Source: Terriglobales bacterium (lineage in GTDB: Bacteria; Acidobacteriota; Terriglobia; Terriglobales; Acidobacteriaceae). Taken from it: DNA of 64,000 nt. Under the pieces are notes generated by a model. It searched no databases. It was not told where the DNA came from and saw only the letters and a list, made by a program, of their open reading frames with translations. Location: the NCBI GenBank assembly GCA_025934735.1, contig JAICWP010000017.1, forward strand, positions 1-64,000, in the 5' to 3' direction. The translations under genes were made by a program, and so were the position numbers. Below are positions 3,890-10,510 of this stretch, one piece after another (positions within the stretch are counted from its first letter, which is position 1; the number at the start of each line of letters is the position of its first letter).

Positions 3890-4038
3890 TGCGCTTCTCT
3901 GCCCCGTTGTTTATGCCAATACGGGAAACGGGCCATGGGACAATACAGTCGGCGATTGGGGGCAATACTTACCTCAAATTCAAACCAAGCGGCAGCACGC
4001 TTCTGGTCAGGGATTATTTCACTCCACACAAATTGTTT
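3890..4038 (+). pseudogene. Left fragment of beta-propeller gene split by the IS element
   Basis: Reading VVYANTGNGPWDNTVGDWG and then NTYLKFKPSGSTLLVRDYF runs straight into the right fragment once the element 4039-6009 and one copy of AATTGTTT are removed. The junction then reads TPHKLFNTNDQDLGSNT with no gap. One extra G in the run near 3956-3960 shifts the frame, so the gene was damaged besides the insertion. The 5' part of the gene is missing, and its left limit is approximate. The family is the PQQ-like or YVTN-type extracellular beta-propeller proteins common in Acidobacteriota. Confidence 0.7.
4031..4038 (+). repeat. Left target-site duplication AATTGTTT
   Basis: The 8-bp sequence AATTGTTT directly precedes the left inverted repeat and is repeated exactly at 6010-6017. 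Eight bp is the usual duplication length for the IS1595 family. Confidence 0.85.
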
Positions 4039-4061
4039 CATGATTATTTACTTGACAAAAG
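4039..4061 (+). repeat. Left terminal inverted repeat of IS element
   Basis: A 23-bp end beginning CATGATTATTTAC, identical in inverted orientation to 5987-6009. It contains TTGACA (4052-4057), a consensus -35 hexamer pointing inward to the passenger gene. Confidence 0.9.
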
Positions 4062-4142
4062 TCAATGACTAGAGGATTCTTGCGGCTAAGGCCGCCCGAC
4101 CTGAGATTGCAACGGCACCCCGAGCGGCCCCGGAGGTGTTCG

Positions 4143-4898
4143 GTGACAGTTGGCGTAGGATTTCTTTGCGCTGACGGTGTAATGCTTTGTGCTGATGATC
4201 AGATAACGTGGCGCGAAAGTCACAAGTATTACGAACGCAAGATTTACCCCGTCTATGACTCCAAAGCATCAGTGGTTGCGGCGACGTTCTCGGGAAACCC
4301 AGACCTGATGAAATCATTTGTGGGCAAATTTAAGGCGTCAATGGGTCATATGCCAGAACCACATACTGCTGACAGAATCCAAGAGACCATCGAGACGGTA
4401 CTAACATTTTTCGACGTCCTTAAAGACGAGCCCACACAGCTAAACTTGTTGTGCGGAATAGTAATCCCGAATAAGGAATTCAGGCTAGTCAAATCAGATG
4501 GCTATGTTGTGCGCGATGTTCCGCGATTTGATTACGTAGGAATAGGAGATTCATCGGTTCTGCGCTTCTTATCGCCGTTGCTGGTACGGCGCCGAGAGTT
4601 TTTCCTGCAGGAAGCATTTAACATCGCAGCCTATATGGTATTTCAAGCCAAGCGATACGTAGACGGATGTGGGGGCAGCACTGATGGATTGTTGATGGAG
4701 AAAACTGGATGCGGCGTAAATATTCATCTGCAACCGGGAATGGGAATAGAGGCGGCGTTTAGCAGGATAGAACACACGCTAGCAGAGGTTGCCAATGCGC
4801 TATCCGATACTGGGATGTCCGATGATAGGCTCGACAATTATGTGAAGCAATTTGCGGATACGCTTAAAGCAGACGCAACATGGTTTAGGAGAAAGTAA
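4143..4898 (+). CDS. Proteasome/HslV-like Ntn-hydrolase, IS passenger
   Basis: 251 aa. The GTG start has GGAGG 6 nt upstream, and the next codon is Thr, so removal of Met would expose Thr1, as in proteasome beta subunits and HslV. The N-terminus TVGVGFLCADGVMLCADDQ matches the beta-subunit pattern, with Asp at position 17 and Lys at 32 where catalytic Asp17 and Lys33 are expected. Later segments (FDYVGIGDSS; VDGCGGSTDG) fit the family's GSG and D-x-x-S-G regions, though the Ser is Gly here. Catalysis by self-compartmentalised proteolysis is inferred. No ATPase partner is nearby. The gene lies wholly inside the IS element, convergent with its transposase and 19 bp from it. Confidence 0.75.
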   Translation: MTVGVGFLCADGVMLCADDQITWRESHKYYERKIYPVYDSKASVVAATFSGNPDLMKSFVGKFKASMGHMPEPHTADRIQETIETVLTFFDVLKDEPTQLNLLCGIVIPNKEFRLVKSDGYVVRDVPRFDYVGIGDSSVLRFLSPLLVRRREFFLQEAFNIAAYMVFQAKRYVDGCGGSTDGLLMEKTGCGVNIHLQPGMGIEAAFSRIEHTLAEVANALSDTGMSDDRLDNYVKQFADTLKADATWFRRK

Positions 4899-4917
4899 GA
4901 AAAGTAAGACACTTAAT

Positions 4918-5808
4918 TTATGCCGTGAGCTTTTCAAATGTTAGTGTTTGGGCTGTAACCATATGCCGCAGGGTGTCCAAGAACAAATCGGAACGCTTGC
5001 GACGGTTAAACCGAAACTCCATCTCAGCGAGGTATGCTGGAAGGTGCTTTGCGCTGATCTTGTGCCACGTTCCAATGACGCCGCGCTTGAGAAGGGAGAA
5101 TGCATTCTCCACAGTATTAGTGTGAATCTCGCCGTTTACGTACTCTTTCCAGCTATGGTTGATAGTGAAGTGGTTCTCGGTGAAGCCATTCTCTGCGACC
5201 GCCGCAGGGTAGGCTTTGAAATCATCTGTAACGATGCATTCCACGTCCTTGCTGATGTTATCGGCGATGTACTTGGCCAGGGTACCGGATTTAGCGTCTT
5301 CGGCCCGGAAGAAACGAACGTCGCCGCCGCGCTCCCGAATGGCAACGACAATCTGTTTCCCTTTTCCATGTGGTCCGCGTCCCATTCCACGCGTGCGACC
5401 GCCGATATAGGTTTCGTCCATTTCGACCACTCCGCTAAGCATCACATGCTCTGCCTGTGCCATTGCAGCGCGGATACGATGACAGAGATACCAAGCAGTC
5501 TTGTAACTAACCCCCAGCGTGCGCTTCATCTGGTTTGCGGAGAACCCTTTGCGTGCTTCTACCAACAGCAGCACAGCCATGAACCACGTGTTAAGCGGCA
5601 GATGGGAGTCGTTGAAGATCGTGCCAGCGGTTACAGTGAATTGGTAATCACAATCCTTGCAGTAGAACAGTTGCTTTTCCGTCTCCAGCTCAAGCGCTGG
5701 ACATTTGCAGCGCGGGCACTCCGGACCATTGGGCCAGCGCAAACGGCATAGAATCTCGCGGCATTTGCTGTCAGTATCGAAGACGTTTTGAATGTCTAGA
5801 AGGGTCAC
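4918..5808 (-). CDS. IS1595 family transposase
   Basis: 296 aa. An N-terminal zinc ribbon (CPRCKC, then CKDCDY) is followed by a helical DNA-binding region. The RNase H-like DDE core includes DETYIGG, TDDFKAY and HTNTVENAFSLLKRG, in the order expected for the family (D, D, then N/E). The length is normal and the frame intact. It starts at GTG with GAGAGG upstream on the minus strand. A promoter with TTGACA in the right inverted repeat (see 5968-5996) should drive it. Confidence 0.93.
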   Translation of the reverse strand: MTLLDIQNVFDTDSKCREILCRLRWPNGPECPRCKCPALELETEKQLFYCKDCDYQFTVTAGTIFNDSHLPLNTWFMAVLLLVEARKGFSANQMKRTLGVSYKTAWYLCHRIRAAMAQAEHVMLSGVVEMDETYIGGRTRGMGRGPHGKGKQIVVAIRERGGDVRFFRAEDAKSGTLAKYIADNISKDVECIVTDDFKAYPAAVAENGFTENHFTINHSWKEYVNGEIHTNTVENAFSLLKRGVIGTWHKISAKHLPAYLAEMEFRFNRRKRSDLFLDTLRHMVTAQTLTFEKLTA

Positions 5809-5820
5809 AGGGCACCTCTC

Positions 5821-5946
5821 ATGGATGAGAAGCAGAAACGGGAGCAGTTGAAGCGGGTACCGACGCGGAAGCTGCTGGCATCAATTAAGAAGGACATACG
5901 GCGGGACTTGCGGGCATCCGCTACCGCTAAGCCCAAGAAGAAGTGA
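5821..5946 (+). CDS. Tiny lysine/arginine-rich ORF inside the IS element
   Basis: 41 aa beginning MDEKQKREQLKRVP and ending in ATAKPKKK. It is very basic and helical. It lies in the transposase leader on the opposite strand, and its ribosome site is weak. A basic DNA-binding accessory peptide is conceivable. Chance is equally possible. Confidence 0.25.
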   Translation: MDEKQKREQLKRVPTRKLLASIKKDIRRDLRASATAKPKKK

Positions 5947-5967
5947 GCCTTTTCCTTCATGGGTAGG

Positions 5968-5996
5968 ATGGTAGCGTGTCAGCCTGCTTTTGTCAA
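5968..5996 (-). promoter_or_regulatory. Transposase promoter with -35 in the inverted repeat
   Basis: On the minus strand, TTGACA (5991-5996) within the right inverted repeat is followed after exactly 17 bp by TACCAT (5968-5973), which matches the -10 consensus at 4 of 6 bases. It points toward the transposase start at 5808. Confidence 0.5.
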
Positions 5997-6009
5997 GTAA
6001 ATAATCATG
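5987..6009 (-). repeat. Right terminal inverted repeat of IS element
   Basis: A 23-bp perfect inverted copy of 4039-4061, immediately followed by the second AATTGTTT copy. Confidence 0.9.
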
Positions 6010-6017
6010 AATTGTTT
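6010..6017 (+). repeat. Right target-site duplication AATTGTTT
   Basis: Exact copy of 4031-4038. Together they define the element ends. Confidence 0.85.
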
Positions 6018-6632
6018 AATACGAATGATCAAGATTTGGGTTCCAACACTGCTATTCTCCTTCCGACCCAATCTGGAACATACCCCCACGAGATGGTCGG
6101 CGGCGACAAGAATGGGACTATCTATGTGATCAATCGCGACAATATGGGCAAGTTCAACAGCAGCGGCGACCAGATCATTCAAGAATTACGTGGCGCCATT
6201 GGTGTCCACATATCGACTGTATCCGACTGTAATTCCACCACATCGGATTGCAACTATAGTACCCCAGCCTATTGGAACGGGAGGATCTACTTCGCAGGAG
6301 TAAACGACAAAGTAAAGGCATTTGCTGTTTCTAGCGGTTTGCTGTCAGGTCCGACTTCTAAATCCGCCGAAACCTTTGGTTATCCTGGAGCAACGCCCAC
6401 CATATCCGCTAATGGCACAAATAATGGCATTGTTTGGACTATCGAACCTGCAAGGGCCATTCTGCATGCCTACAGTGCAACCGATCTCGGGAATGAACTG
6501 TACAACAGCAACCAGAATAGTAGCCGCGACGCACTCGGATCAAACGTGAAATTTGTCCCTCCCGCCGTTGTAAATGGCAAAGTGTATATTGGGCGATCTT
6601 CTTGCTCGCGAGCTCCATTTCCAGGTCGCTGA
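6018..6632 (+). pseudogene. Right fragment of beta-propeller gene
   Basis: About 195 residues of a propeller protein: NTNDQDLGSNTAILLP, MVGGDKNGTIYVINRDNMG, STPAYWNGRIYFAGVNDKVK, GATPTISANGTNNGIVW and FVPPAVVNGKVYIG. The last matches the usual final blade. After VYIG (about 6596) the sequence no longer fits, and the opposite strand becomes the dodecin gene, so the 3' end is also lost. The full-length family is secreted or periplasmic with PQQ-like or YVTN repeats. The gene is dead at both ends and split by the IS element. Confidence 0.75.
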
Positions 6633-6747
6633 CTCTCGCCCACTTCATTCCGCGAACGGTCGTCGATGCTTCCTCAATGGCATTCGCTGCGGCTTTGGCA
6701 AAGCTCTCGTTGGATACTCCGACGATGTCGATCACTTTGGGGGCCAT
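6439..6747 (-). CDS. Dodecin family protein with replaced C-terminus
   Basis: The first 50 or so residues (APKVIDIVGVSNESFAKAAA, then KWARVSDLEMELASKKI) are clearly dodecin, a small dodecameric flavin-binding protein normally about 65-75 aa. After KKIAQYT (near 6590) the frame enters the antisense of the beta-propeller remnant and runs to 102 aa. The last dodecin strand is therefore replaced by unrelated sequence, and the product is probably inactive or unstable. AGAGGA precedes the ATG. Confidence 0.7.
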   Translation of the reverse strand: MAPKVIDIVGVSNESFAKAAANAIEEASTTVRGMKWARVSDLEMELASKKIAQYTLCHLQRREGQISRLIRVRRGYYSGCCCTVHSRDRLHCRHAEWPLQVR

Positions 6748-6808
6748 AGTCGATTTTCCTCTTTACTTTTGTGGCCATTGATTCTCTCATGGCGGTCAGC
6801 AACACATC

Positions 6809-7006
6809 CTATCCCGCTGTCTTGATGCCGCGGTCTACGGTCCGTTGAGCCAGGTCGGCAATCATATTGAACCCACACTGGAGACAGCAGGGGCCGTCGT
6901 GCGCCCCTGTGCATTTCAACGTGGCCGCGTTTAAGCCGCAGATGGAGCACTGATACGTCCCTGGGCCATCCTCGATTACGGCAAACATCACTGAGCATCG
7001 GGGCAT
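6809..7006 (-). CDS. Small zinc-ribbon-like protein
   Basis: 65 aa starting MPRCSVMFAV from an ATG with GGAGG just upstream; an earlier in-frame ATG would overlap that ribosome site. Two paired-cysteine knuckles (CSIC and CLQC) plus further Cys and His between them suggest one bound zinc. No family is recognised. A CRP-type palindrome (7057-7072) lies about 50 bp upstream. Confidence 0.6.
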   Translation of the reverse strand: MPRCSVMFAVIEDGPGTYQCSICGLNAATLKCTGAHDGPCCLQCGFNMIADLAQRTVDRGIKTAG

Positions 7007-7056
7007 GACGCCCTCCAAAGGTTATGCAAGGATGCGGCTCGGAATGGCTAGGCGTC

Positions 7057-7072
7057 TGTGACCGGGGTCACA
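7057..7072. promoter_or_regulatory. CRP-like palindromic site
   Basis: TGTGA-CCGGGG-TCACA is an exact match to the TGTGA-N6-TCACA pattern of CRP-type regulators and is part of an 18-bp perfect palindrome (7056-7073). It is 51-66 bp upstream of the zinc-ribbon start on the minus strand. A Crp-family regulator is encoded at 714. Linking the two is inference. Confidence 0.5.
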
Positions 7073-7095
7073 GGTCTCCGACTCGAGTTAGGGAG

Positions 7096-7125
7096 TAATA
7101 AGAGCCCCGGCTGGAGGAACGGGGC
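7096..7125 (-). terminator. Possible rho-independent terminator
   Basis: On the minus strand GCCCCG pairs with CGGGGC across a 10-nt loop and is followed by TCTTATT. It would end transcription of the minus-strand ORF stopping at 7141. Confidence 0.45.
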
Positions 7126-7140
7126 CGGTTGGTTTTACGG

Positions 7141-7443
7141 TCATGCAGCAGCAGTGGCGATCGTCTTCTTCGCGATGGCCTCGTCCAGCTTGCAGGGTGT
7201 CACCAGCATCGGCGCTGTCAGGAATCGCTCGACAATCGGCTTCCCTTGAGCCTTGAGAAGGTGGCGGGCGCCGTCGCCAGCGCTCAGGTGGATCTGAACT
7301 CCCACCAGGTCTATGCGGCGCTCTTCGCATTCCTCACCCCTTTCCAAGCAGCGAATCCCATCCTGATCTCGCGACGCCCAAGACGTGACGCTTTTTTCGG
7401 TTCGCACTTGGGCGACCCCCACGCTAAGATTGCCAAAACAACC
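7141..7443 (-). CDS. Hypothetical protein, uncertain start
   Basis: A minus-strand frame whose C-terminal part looks coding: ERRIDLVGVQIHLSAGDGA, HLLKAQGKPIVERFLTAP and CKLDEAIAKKTIATAAA. The frame stays open to 7629, but the only ATG is there and would overlap the next gene. A GTG near 7420 is more likely, without a clear ribosome site. A terminator-like hairpin follows the stop. No family is recognised. Confidence 0.35.
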   Translation of the reverse strand, partial: GCFGNLSVGVAQVRTEKSVTSWASRDQDGIRCLERGEECEERRIDLVGVQIHLSAGDGARHLLKAQGKPIVERFLTAPMLVTPCKLDEAIAKKTIATAAA

Positions 7444-7539
7444 GGATAGCTGCTGGGTCGCTCCCAAGCGGCTATAAGGCGGGGCGCCTTCCCGTCCCAG
7501 GTCACTTCGCAAAATCAGGAAGGTCACGGAAGGTGACAA

Positions 7540-8823
7540 ATGCTTCAGAACGACGAACCGTTTCGGTGGGAGGTTCTTGACCAGCGGCTTATAGCTCCCA
7601 AGATTTCCGCCATCGCGGACAAGATGCACAAGCGAGCCGCTGGAGAGGAGCGTCGCATAGCGTATGAAGTGGCGCAGAGCGGCAATGCAGCCGGGTACCT
7701 GCCCCGATTATTTGATTTTCATGAGCAACTGACGGAACAATGGGCAGCAGATGTTTACGCCGCCCACTGCAAGGCCTGGAAGGAACAAGGCCGCACTGTT
7801 TCGCCCGGCTTCATACGAGCGGTTCGCGACAGGGCCATTACCCCCCTAATCGCGACCAGAAAAGGAACAGTGCAATGGGAGGTTTCCATCCGTGCGACTC
7901 GGATAAGTGAACCGCTGAATTCCTGTGCGCTCGGAGAATGGTCGCGAAGAATGGACCGACTTGCGGCACGTTGGAGCTCCAAGCTAGAAGCCGAAGCAGT
8001 TGCCGCTGAATACCGCTCATCAGATCAGGGCTGTGACATCGGCAATGCAGAATTACCAGACCTACTGAAACTGGCGGATGGCTTCCAATTGCCAGACCCA
8101 GTCGGCACAAATCCCTTTCGACCGGAGGATCCTCGGCATCAGGTCTGGAAAGCCGCGTCGCGTCGTGCAGAACAGGAAGTATGTGTGCTCAATGCTGCAG
8201 GAATAGACGTTGCATGCGAATTTCGGTCTTGTACCGAAGATGAAGCCCGTCGGCTCGTGTTCGCTCGCGTCAGTTATCTCGCCTGTGCCAAATACGACAT
8301 TTGGGCAAAACGCGGCATCCAGATTGTTTGGAGCGATGAGGCAATTCCCACCTATGACCAATGGCTAGCAAATTATGCAAATGCATGGTTAAACACAGTT
8401 AAAAATTGGCGTTTTGAAATGGAAGGGCTTTTACCCGAGCTTCGTTCCCGTCTGATAGGGCGCATGGAGTTTTGGAAATCGGAAGCACGACGGTATGTCG
8501 CCGAGCAGCAGACCGCGGTGGCAAAGCGGGAGGATCCTCACCAACTTCTGCAGGCAGGGCACACTCCTGGGGAGAAGCCCGAACCCGCCCCAGCTCCGAA
8601 GCGCACGGTGATCGGGAGCAACATAGACAAGTTCCGAAAAGAATGTGGATGGAGCTACCATGATCTATCGAACCGGACGGGCCTCGAGAAGAAACTGATT
8701 CTTGGCCATGTCAATAAAGCTAAAGGCCTATACCCCAAGACATTGAAAATTTATGCTGACGCTTTCACTAAGACGCTGGGTCGGATAGTCTCGGTCAAAG
8801 ATTTAGAGACGCCAACCGGCTAA
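7540..8823 (+). CDS. Uncharacterised protein with C-terminal helix-turn-helix
   Basis: 427 aa from an ATG with GGAAGG 7 nt upstream. The first 340 residues are helix-rich and Trp/Arg/Glu-rich (EEYRIA-like, HEQLTEQWAADVYAAHCKAW) with no domain I recognise. A Pro-rich linker (PEPAPAPKR, about 350-357) leads to an XRE-like helix-turn-helix, about 360-420 (SNIDKFRKECGWSYHDLSNRT, then a recognition-helix-like segment, then LKIYADAF). It could be a DNA-binding regulator of the adjoining accessory region. It lies alone between an antisense ORF and tRNA-Val. Confidence 0.65.
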   Translation: MLQNDEPFRWEVLDQRLIAPKISAIADKMHKRAAGEERRIAYEVAQSGNAAGYLPRLFDFHEQLTEQWAADVYAAHCKAWKEQGRTVSPGFIRAVRDRAITPLIATRKGTVQWEVSIRATRISEPLNSCALGEWSRRMDRLAARWSSKLEAEAVAAEYRSSDQGCDIGNAELPDLLKLADGFQLPDPVGTNPFRPEDPRHQVWKAASRRAEQEVCVLNAAGIDVACEFRSCTEDEARRLVFARVSYLACAKYDIWAKRGIQIVWSDEAIPTYDQWLANYANAWLNTVKNWRFEMEGLLPELRSRLIGRMEFWKSEARRYVAEQQTAVAKREDPHQLLQAGHTPGEKPEPAPAPKRTVIGSNIDKFRKECGWSYHDLSNRTGLEKKLILGHVNKAKGLYPKTLKIYADAFTKTLGRIVSVKDLETPTG

Positions 8824-8890
8824 CCAGCGTGCGACATTAACTCCCGGGTAGCAAGTTGGTAGCACCGATCTATCATCGTTGACTGGAAAC

Positions 8891-8967
8891 TGGTGGGCAG
8901 TGCAGGGCTCGAACCTGCGACCTCGTGCTTGTAAGGCACGCGCTCTAACCAGCTGAGCTAACCGCCC
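8891..8967 (-). tRNA. tRNA-Val (anticodon TAC)
   Basis: On the minus strand the acceptor stem GGGCGGT pairs with ACTGCCC, and the D arm is TAGCTCAGCTGGTTAGA. The anticodon stem CGTGC/GCACG encloses loop CTTACAA (anticodon TAC), and the T arm is GCAGGTTCGAGCCCTGC. The 3' CCA is encoded (8891-8893). The 3' end faces the accessory region at lower coordinates. Confidence 0.93.
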
Positions 8968-9169
8968 GTCGGCCAACACCCCTTACTTTATCACTTTCAG
9001 CGCTGAGGCTCGGGTGGATGCTGTGAAGGGGTGCCGTCACCGGCGCCGGTGGTCACGCAATGGTGGAAAGTTGGACTTCCAGGCATCTCTTTCCTTGCTG
9101 CTGGAAACCAAATGCAGGGGGCCCGGCGACTTAAGCTAGAGCGTCGCACCACGGCCGTGCGGGGGCTAC

Positions 9170-9550
9170 ATGAAAGCCATCCTGTTCGTAGACGACCACG
9201 AAGTGCTGGCGCGGCTGAGCTGCGAGATCCTTGAAATGCAGGGCTATCGCGCCGTTTCCGCCTACAACGCCGGCCAGGCGCTGGAAAAGCTGGACCAGGA
9301 AAAATTCGATGTGCTGGTCACCGACTTCCGCATGGAAGGCATGGATGGCCTGCAGCTGGCGCGCAAAATCCACGCGAAAGACCCGGGCATGCCGGTCATT
9401 ATCGTTACCGGGTACGGCCCCATCGAGACCGGGGGCGACGCCACGGCCTGTCTGGCTAAGGAGCATCTCTTCCCCGCCCTGCTGGAAAAAATCCGGCTGG
9501 TTCTGGGCGAAAACGAATCGCGCAAGGAGCCGGCGGGAAAAACCGCGTAA
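9170..9550 (+). CDS. Stand-alone response regulator receiver protein
   Basis: 126 aa with one receiver domain: acidic D8/D9 (FVDDHE), phosphoacceptor D52 (VTDFRM), the T of VTGYG, and a Lys in CLAKEH. There is no output domain, only a short charged tail. It therefore acts through protein partners or a phosphorelay. No histidine kinase is adjacent. The next gene starts 70 bp downstream in the same direction. Confidence 0.85.
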   Translation: MKAILFVDDHEVLARLSCEILEMQGYRAVSAYNAGQALEKLDQEKFDVLVTDFRMEGMDGLQLARKIHAKDPGMPVIIVTGYGPIETGGDATACLAKEHLFPALLEKIRLVLGENESRKEPAGKTA

Positions 9551-9622
9551 AACCGGGAATCCGGTGTCAATAGTCAGTGGTGAGCAGTTAGGCACGACAA
9601 TCACCCCTGCTAGACTGGCGGC

Positions 9623-10510
9623 GTGCGCCGCCTGATCATCAACGCCGACGACTTCGGGCTGACCTCGGGCGTGAACCGCGCCATTCTGGAAGCGCACCAG
9701 CACGGGGTGGTGACTTCAGCCACGCTCATGGCGGGAGGACGCGCCTTCGAGGAAGCGGCGCAATTCGCGCAACAAGCGCCGCAACTGAACGTGGGCTGCC
9801 ATGTGGTGTTGGTGGACGGCGAGCCGCTCTTGCCGCCGGAGCAAGTTCCCAGCCTCGTGCCCGCCGGTGGTCAGGCAGCGCATTTTCGCAGTGGGTTTGG
9901 GGACCTGGCGGCGGCAGCCCTGCGCGGGCGAATTGACGCAGCCCAGGTACAAGCCGAGGCCACGGCGCAAATGCGCAAGCTGCAAGCGGCGGGACTCGCC
10001 CTCTCCCATTTCGACACCCACAAACATGCGCATATGTTTTCCGGCATCCTGCGGCCGCTGCTGCGGGCGGCGCGGGCCTGCGGCGTGCGCGCGCTGCGCA
10101 ATCCTTTTGCTCCGGTGAAGCCCCTGGCTTTCGCCCACCTGCTGCGGCGTCCACGGCTATGGAAGCGCTATTCGGAAGTAACGGCGCTGCGCCGCCTGCT
10201 GGACAGTTTTCGCCGCGCCGTGCAGGAGGAGCAAATGATCACCACCGATGGCACCTTCGGCATCGTCTCCACCGGCGCGCTGGATGAACGGCTGTTTGAC
10301 GCTATCGTGGGCTCGATCCCTGAGGGCACCTGGGAATTCGTCTGCCATCCCGGCTACAACGATTCCGAATTAGGCGGGGTGCGCACGCGGTTGCGCGAGT
10401 CGCGGGTGCAGGAATTACGGGTTCTCACATCCGAGGCGGCAAGAACCACGCTGGAGCGGCATGGAGTGGAGCTGATTTCGTGGAAGCAGTTGCTACCTAG
10501 TAGCTGCTAA
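9623..10510 (+). CDS. hpnK: ChbG/HpnK family deacetylase
   Basis: 295 aa with the YdjC fold. Visible are the metal/catalytic motif INADDFG at residues 6-12, SHFDTHKHAHMF with the metal histidines near 130, and CHPGYND near 245. The family removes N-acetyl groups from small glycans. HpnK acts in hopanoid tail synthesis and ChbG on chitooligosaccharides. HpnK is suggested by the length and taxon, but no other hopanoid gene is in the window. The start is GTG. It is not a PIG-L type BshB, despite lying beside bshA. Confidence 0.8.
   Translation: MRRLIINADDFGLTSGVNRAILEAHQHGVVTSATLMAGGRAFEEAAQFAQQAPQLNVGCHVVLVDGEPLLPPEQVPSLVPAGGQAAHFRSGFGDLAAAALRGRIDAAQVQAEATAQMRKLQAAGLALSHFDTHKHAHMFSGILRPLLRAARACGVRALRNPFAPVKPLAFAHLLRRPRLWKRYSEVTALRRLLDSFRRAVQEEQMITTDGTFGIVSTGALDERLFDAIVGSIPEGTWEFVCHPGYNDSELGGVRTRLRESRVQELRVLTSEAARTTLERHGVELISWKQLLPSSC

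Follow-up and report, generated by a model that had tools for sequence, protein, structure and literature searches.

The analysed stretch of DNA (the window; 64,000 nt of a Terriglobales bacterium contig, JAICWP010000017.1) holds at positions 4039–6009 two convergent genes, for a cargo protein on the plus strand and a transposase on the minus strand, 19 bp apart and enclosed by terminal inverted repeats (Table 1). The repeats are perfect over 23/23 bp and bordered by an exact 8-bp duplication; a repeat finder gives 25 bp because the duplication by chance adds two complementary bases. The transposase matched NF033547 (2.8e-59, score 200.6 against a cut-off of 75 bits), PF12762 over its full length (1–153/153) and PF12760 (1.7e-9). 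The DDE transposase with its zinc ribbon, the terminal repeats and the 8-bp duplication place the element in the IS1595 family, as a preliminary description of a complete IS1595-type element with an intact transposase had proposed. As to the putative transposase promoter, most related elements have a -10-like hexamer at a spacing of 17–18 bp. A 41-codon basic ORF (5821–5946, plus strand) also lies in the interval that separates the start of the transposase gene from the right end.

Table 1. Features of the cargo-carrying element and its insertion site (window positions)
Feature	Position	Strand	Basis or remark
Interrupted target gene, 5' part, beta-propeller-like	3961–4038	+	Flank joining, homologues
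Target-site duplication, left copy AATTGTTT	4031–4038	.	Sequence
Left terminal inverted repeat CATGATTATTTACTTGACAAAAG	4039–4061	+	Consensus common to ~25 related elements
TTGACA in left repeat, possible -35 box	4052–4057	+	Promoter role inferred
Cargo gene, predicted proteasome-like Ntn-hydrolase, 251 aa, GTG start, Thr1/Asp17/Lys32 at residues 2/18/33	4143–4898	+	Profile, alignment, AlphaFold, Foldseek
IS1595-family DDE transposase with zinc ribbon, 296 aa	4918–5808	-	Profile matches; convergent with cargo
Putative transposase promoter: TTGACA (5991–5996) in right repeat, 17-bp spacer, TACCAT (5968–5973)	5968–5996	-	Inference
Right terminal inverted repeat, perfect complement of left	5987–6009	-	Sequence
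Target-site duplication, right copy AATTGTTT	6010–6017	.	Sequence
Interrupted target gene, 3' part	6018–6593	+	Flank joining, homologues

Judged from its sequence, this segment is a complete cargo-carrying IS1595-family element inserted into a gene that is uninterrupted in relatives. When the element and one copy of the duplication were removed in silico, a continuous reading frame was obtained across the junction, and the rejoined product aligned end to end, over the junction, with uninterrupted genes of relatives at 50–54% identity. The restored frame and the intact homologues argue for a genuine insertion into a gene, and the interrupted gene, together with the separate insertion sites of related elements, implies past transposition activity. 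The ends of the window element occur in one copy in the window's genome.

Transporter ISs (tIS) with passengers are known, for example ISNha5 (PMC11891212, citing Siguier 2009); the passengers reported for them comprise regulators, methyltransferases and resistance genes. Like the IS1595 tIS, the window element has a transposase of this family, short inverted repeats that come with an 8-bp duplication, and a passenger within the ends. It differs in its cargo, a proteasome-like hydrolase of a kind that has been exchanged among vehicles from more than one IS family.

Family, fold and active site of the cargo protein

By computational assignment of its fold and residues, the window cargo is a proteasome-like Ntn-hydrolase (PF00227 superfamily). 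The single protein matched PF00227 weakly (E = 0.08–0.1; 13.0 bits, under the 22.4-bit gathering score) and retrieved nothing relevant from the PDB with phmmer; the assignment is significant because of a 38-member family profile, for which homologues were gathered by whole-genome search. Against the PDB, this profile matched proteasome beta subunits (5e-16) and Anbu (4.5e-14), in alignments running from Thr1 over about 200 residues. PF00227 was matched by 32/38 family members (E up to 1, best 1.5e-8), and PHROG 1040, 'peptidase HslV family', was matched weakly by 10/38. For an AlphaFold model of the window cargo (four rows; pLDDT 76, pTM 0.74), the top Foldseek match was Anbu (TM 0.72/0.78, probability 1.00, E 1.6e-10), so that profile and model agree on the Ntn-hydrolase fold that the preliminary description had suggested looking for.

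The Thr1/Asp17/Lys32 pattern noted earlier in the 251-aa protein was likewise confirmed: Thr2, Asp18 and Lys33 of the window cargo correspond to these residues and are conserved in relatives. Met1, Asp18, Lys33 and Gly133 were invariant (38/38 sequences) and Thr2 was replaced once, by Ser, in an alignment with a mean column identity of about 20%. The cargo gene begins Met-Thr, with no propeptide established, and the codon ahead of the Thr was always a start codon (ATG in 29, GTG in 16 and TTG in 1 of 46 cargos); therefore removal of the initiator Met should suffice to free the nucleophile. An in-frame open stretch of at least 16 codons precedes Met-Thr in 39/46 cargos, against a shuffling expectation of 57%. 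This stretch (4065–4142 in the window, and upstream of most cargos) is Pro/Arg-rich, often with ...KRLPxRK. It was considered as a possible propeptide, but its codon-position information was not clearly coding-like and the codon before the Thr is always a start; Met-Thr was therefore kept as the putative start of the cargo. Two close cargo pairs had dN/dS of ~0.10 and 0.15, by a simple method and with synonymous sites near saturation, suggesting that the cargo is under purifying selection.

Among known systems, Anbu is the best fold match and shares the Met-Thr start without an established propeptide, as well as C-terminal helices. However, its identity to the window cargo is ~15%, and the Anbu-type genes encountered in the same phylum adjoin other conserved genes and no transposase, whereas the window cargo stands alone with its transposase; for these reasons we did not retain the window cargo as a member of Anbu. 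With the 20S proteasome beta subunit, HslV and BPH it shares the Thr1/Asp17/Lys33 pattern and the core fold, the best profile scores being to beta subunits. A difference from these systems is that the window element carries neither an alpha subunit nor an ATPase partner, and no ATPase partner was seen inside the other elements searched for one.

That this protein is an Ntn enzyme without proteolytic function, for instance a connectase-like specific ligase or amidase, is an improbable alternative. The family does include ligases, as connectase shows (PMC8665760), and the cargos have divergent surfaces, but the H1–H2 helices that are missing in connectase are predicted in the window cargo (H53–68 and H76–93).

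In 2021, Fuchs, Alva and Lupas described 22 families of proteasome homologues (PMC8665760); their study gives no genomic context that informs on function, and neither transposons nor Acidobacteria are mentioned in it. WPH, PHI, PMI and other families of that study resemble the window cargo in being uncharacterised, divergent and propeptide-less, and the cargo may belong to one of them. The same study reports phage carriage of the proteasome-like homologues PPH and AAH, which are also borne on a mobile element, but on a phage rather than a DDE insertion sequence. The preliminary description knew of no mobile element that moves such a protease. Phage carriage takes away the broad form of that statement; for transposons, carriage of a proteasome-like enzyme looks novel, tIS and proteasome homologues each being already known. 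None of the literature that we searched describes an insertion sequence with a proteasome-like cargo; most subscription papers were beyond its reach, so that an earlier mention is possible. Searches for IS1595 with proteasome returned nothing, and those for proteasome, insertion sequence and passenger returned nothing relevant.

Recurrence of the pairing and exchange of cargo

To avoid selection on cargo, transposases were searched on their own across 250 genomes from the bacterial family to which the window belongs. Twenty-nine had 59% identity or more to the transposase of the window; 25 of these adjoined a proteasome-like cargo, one adjoined an SDH protease and three were unjudgeable (contig edges or second end not found). 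A proteasome-like cargo thus lay tail-to-tail with the transposase in 25/26 judgeable elements. The exception, L124 (3308–5970), belongs to the window's clade and has a ClpP-like SDH serine protease (PF01972, 1.8e-14) in its cargo slot. Ten more distant transposases (53–58%) adjoined no recognised proteasome-like gene but mostly genes for proteins with N-terminal hydrophobic segments. A sister IS1595 set, with transposases ~52–58% identical (L118, L119, L120, L128, L180, L183, L184, L186), carries convergent slot cargos of ~280–440 aa, several of which have hydrophobic segments at the N-terminus; no significant Pfam match was obtained for those tested.

When each element had to show its two ends together with an exact 8-bp duplication, we counted 28 with inverted repeats and proteasome-like cargo in total. 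The count comes from sampled genomes and is no census, and contig ends may truncate elements in draft assemblies. The window's clade accounts for 21 (the window element, WIN, with L008, L045, L046, L050, L052, L053, L058, L064, L069, L077, L080, L115, L116, L117, L121, L123, L126, L127, L178 and L179). Five are IS1-type with GGTAGTG-type or GGTACTG ends (L055, L056, L068, L081, L060), one lies in another IS1595 group (L071) and one has no transposase (L073, 1411 bp). Carriage is thus wider than the IS1595 scope of the preliminary description, whose proposed search for the same ends around homologous cargo–transposase pairs found them in many genomes. The IS1595 elements have the common end consensus CADGATTATNYACTTGACNAARG, which had 0 matches in 1.29 Mb of shuffled sequence. 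Beyond Acidobacteriota, the sampling drew on collections of plasmids, phages and viruses and on two genome-contig scans; the plasmid and phage records gave no match to the cargo family with the queries tried, and single-sequence scans of genome contigs and the viral collection with the window cargo gave none.

Homologues occurred in 48/250 genomes, mostly as single copies. Among the 46 homologue loci first collected, genes near an IS1595 or IS1-like transposase were mostly tail-to-tail with it, and 15 had no recognisable IS around them; in the tree, these 15 are intermingled with IS-borne homologues. The case named earlier as a refutation, homologues lying always outside ISs, did not arise. 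The most diverged cargos (L115, L116, L122, L123, L126, L127) had, with their own profile, a proteasome beta subunit as best PDB match (2.4e-8); some diverged members were recognised through family profiles only. Chance capture in a single element might be suggested by the one copy in the window's genome, but it is refuted because the pairing recurs across tens of genomes, where the insertions have target duplications of their own, and we give it practically no credence. Four elements (L045, L069, L126 and L123) have the target duplication ACTTCAGT/ACTGAAGT in common; the palindrome GCACGACTTCAGTCGTGC is the target of both L045 and L069, which suggests a preference for a repeated hairpin site.

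Cargo and vehicle have diverged to different extents. In the 21 IS1595 elements, transposase identity averaged 67.5% (minimum 54.6) against a cargo mean of 18.6%, with no positive correlation between the two (rho -0.16), and on the cargo tree we counted 22 changes of vehicle type, against 22.5 with shuffled labels. The IS1595 element L045 groups with the IS1 element L009 (cargos 56% identical, transposases 20%), and the window cargo pairs with that of L014 (support 97), on a tree whose branches are long and deep joins weak but whose shallow joins suffice for the decoupling. L014, a predicted viral IMG/VR contig (3300032897_000002), has the cargo closest to the window's (39% identity), adjoining an IS1-like transposase in divergent orientation, with one end found. 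The simplest reading of the decoupled identities and the vehicle-scrambled cargo tree is exchange of cargo cassettes between vehicles, and cargo lineages recognised by their sequence relationships ride alike on IS1595, IS1-type and transposase-less vehicles.

These data bear on a role in transposition, which the preliminary description had listed among its suggestions. An enzyme that regulates jumping by cleaving the transposase or a factor of the host would fit the near-constant tail-to-tail pairing within the window's clade and the mostly single copies per genome. However, cargo and transposase do not co-vary, related vehicles have an SDH protease or membrane proteins in its place, and a single cargo lineage also operates alongside unrelated IS1 transposases; we consider such a regulator unlikely. 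The passenger would be dispensable, since sister elements carry unrelated cargos.

Several elements differ from the window's in their content. L073 (5528–6938) has perfect 16-bp ends and the duplication CAAGAAAA, and contains a single small ORF besides its proteasome-like gene; its ends resemble those of transposase-bearing L071, and it appears to be a non-autonomous cargo cassette. Two IS1-type elements have a co-cargo, a TIR-domain protein in L009 (4000–8924) and a HicA-type gene, accompanied by a putative HicB, in L068 (5821–9050). A small basic protein (GKGKRPRDPNQLAKW...) recurs as extra cargo of IS1-type elements (the L009, L068, L056, L081 group).

Possible functions of the cargo enzyme

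The findings give a large group of proteasome homologues a clear context, that of small transposons between which they are exchanged with the active site kept, and carriage by transposons would explain the patchy distribution of these enzymes. They also raise directly the question of why a transposon carries a proteasome-like enzyme, for which dozens of compact elements form a natural test collection. We think it probable that the window holds a transporter IS1595 element with a modular slot for swapped proteasome-like hydrolases, the cargo being kept for the host or the element and not for transposition. The DDE transposase would act on the 23-bp ends and generate the 8-bp duplication, as the anatomy of the element indicates. 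The cargo would be a catalytically competent Ntn-hydrolase with its Thr nucleophile directly after the start codon, and, as the sequences show, diverse proteasome-like hydrolases, occasionally other proteins, have been swapped into the slot over evolution. Retained most likely for its service to the host or the element, the enzyme may degrade or process a target protein; any help would presumably come from housekeeping chaperones, because no ATPase partner is carried.

What this service might be can be suggested only tentatively. A host-beneficial stress or protein-quality peptidase, like an uncapped 20S proteasome, HslV or Anbu, could aid persistence of the element and is a possible, though not a likely, answer. 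It would account for the proteasome-like fold with its conserved active site, for the purifying selection and for the solitary copies that persist outside ISs, and the same phylum has Anbu, HslV and 20S relatives. The patchy occurrence (48/250 genomes) and the mean identity of 19% are unlike one housekeeping task.

Under selfish retention by addiction, the hydrolase would act on a protein that depends on the element for its protection, so that losing the element carries a penalty; this seems to us improbable. The HicA-type toxin co-cargo of one IS1-type element points that way, but the window element has no second gene for an antidote, and the solitary and transposase-less copies lack a conserved partner.

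Our leading guess, held with less than even confidence, is that the cargo may be a fast-diversifying proteolytic effector of the conflict or defence kind. Somewhat more doubtful is the specific form of this guess, in which IS1595- and IS1-group ISs of Acidobacteriota would shuttle a large and fast-diversifying pool of single-gene proteasome-like conflict effectors, swapped as cassettes between vehicles, for defence against phages or rival mobile elements. The hints are few and uncontrolled: the TIR and HicA co-cargos, the SDH protease in the slot, and solitary homologues near KAP-NTPase or PDC-M34B genes. Against a conflict role, the window element has no partner, immunity gene or unfoldase, and no PADLOC defence family was matched, the window protein being unmatched and one of the 38 members giving a weak Cas6 match.

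Further genes lie close to individual homologues. At the solitary homologue L082 (4676–6336), a PDC-M34B gene is found 30 bp upstream, and at L010 (5720–10034), also solitary, a KAP NTPase (QatA-like) gene lies downstream. In L083, an SDH-type gene is ~1.5 kb from the proteasome-like gene. The IS1-type element of L068 is nested inside a second pair of related ends (5798–10239) with the exact duplication AGAATCTC, and a GIY-YIG-like gene lies between it and these outer ends.
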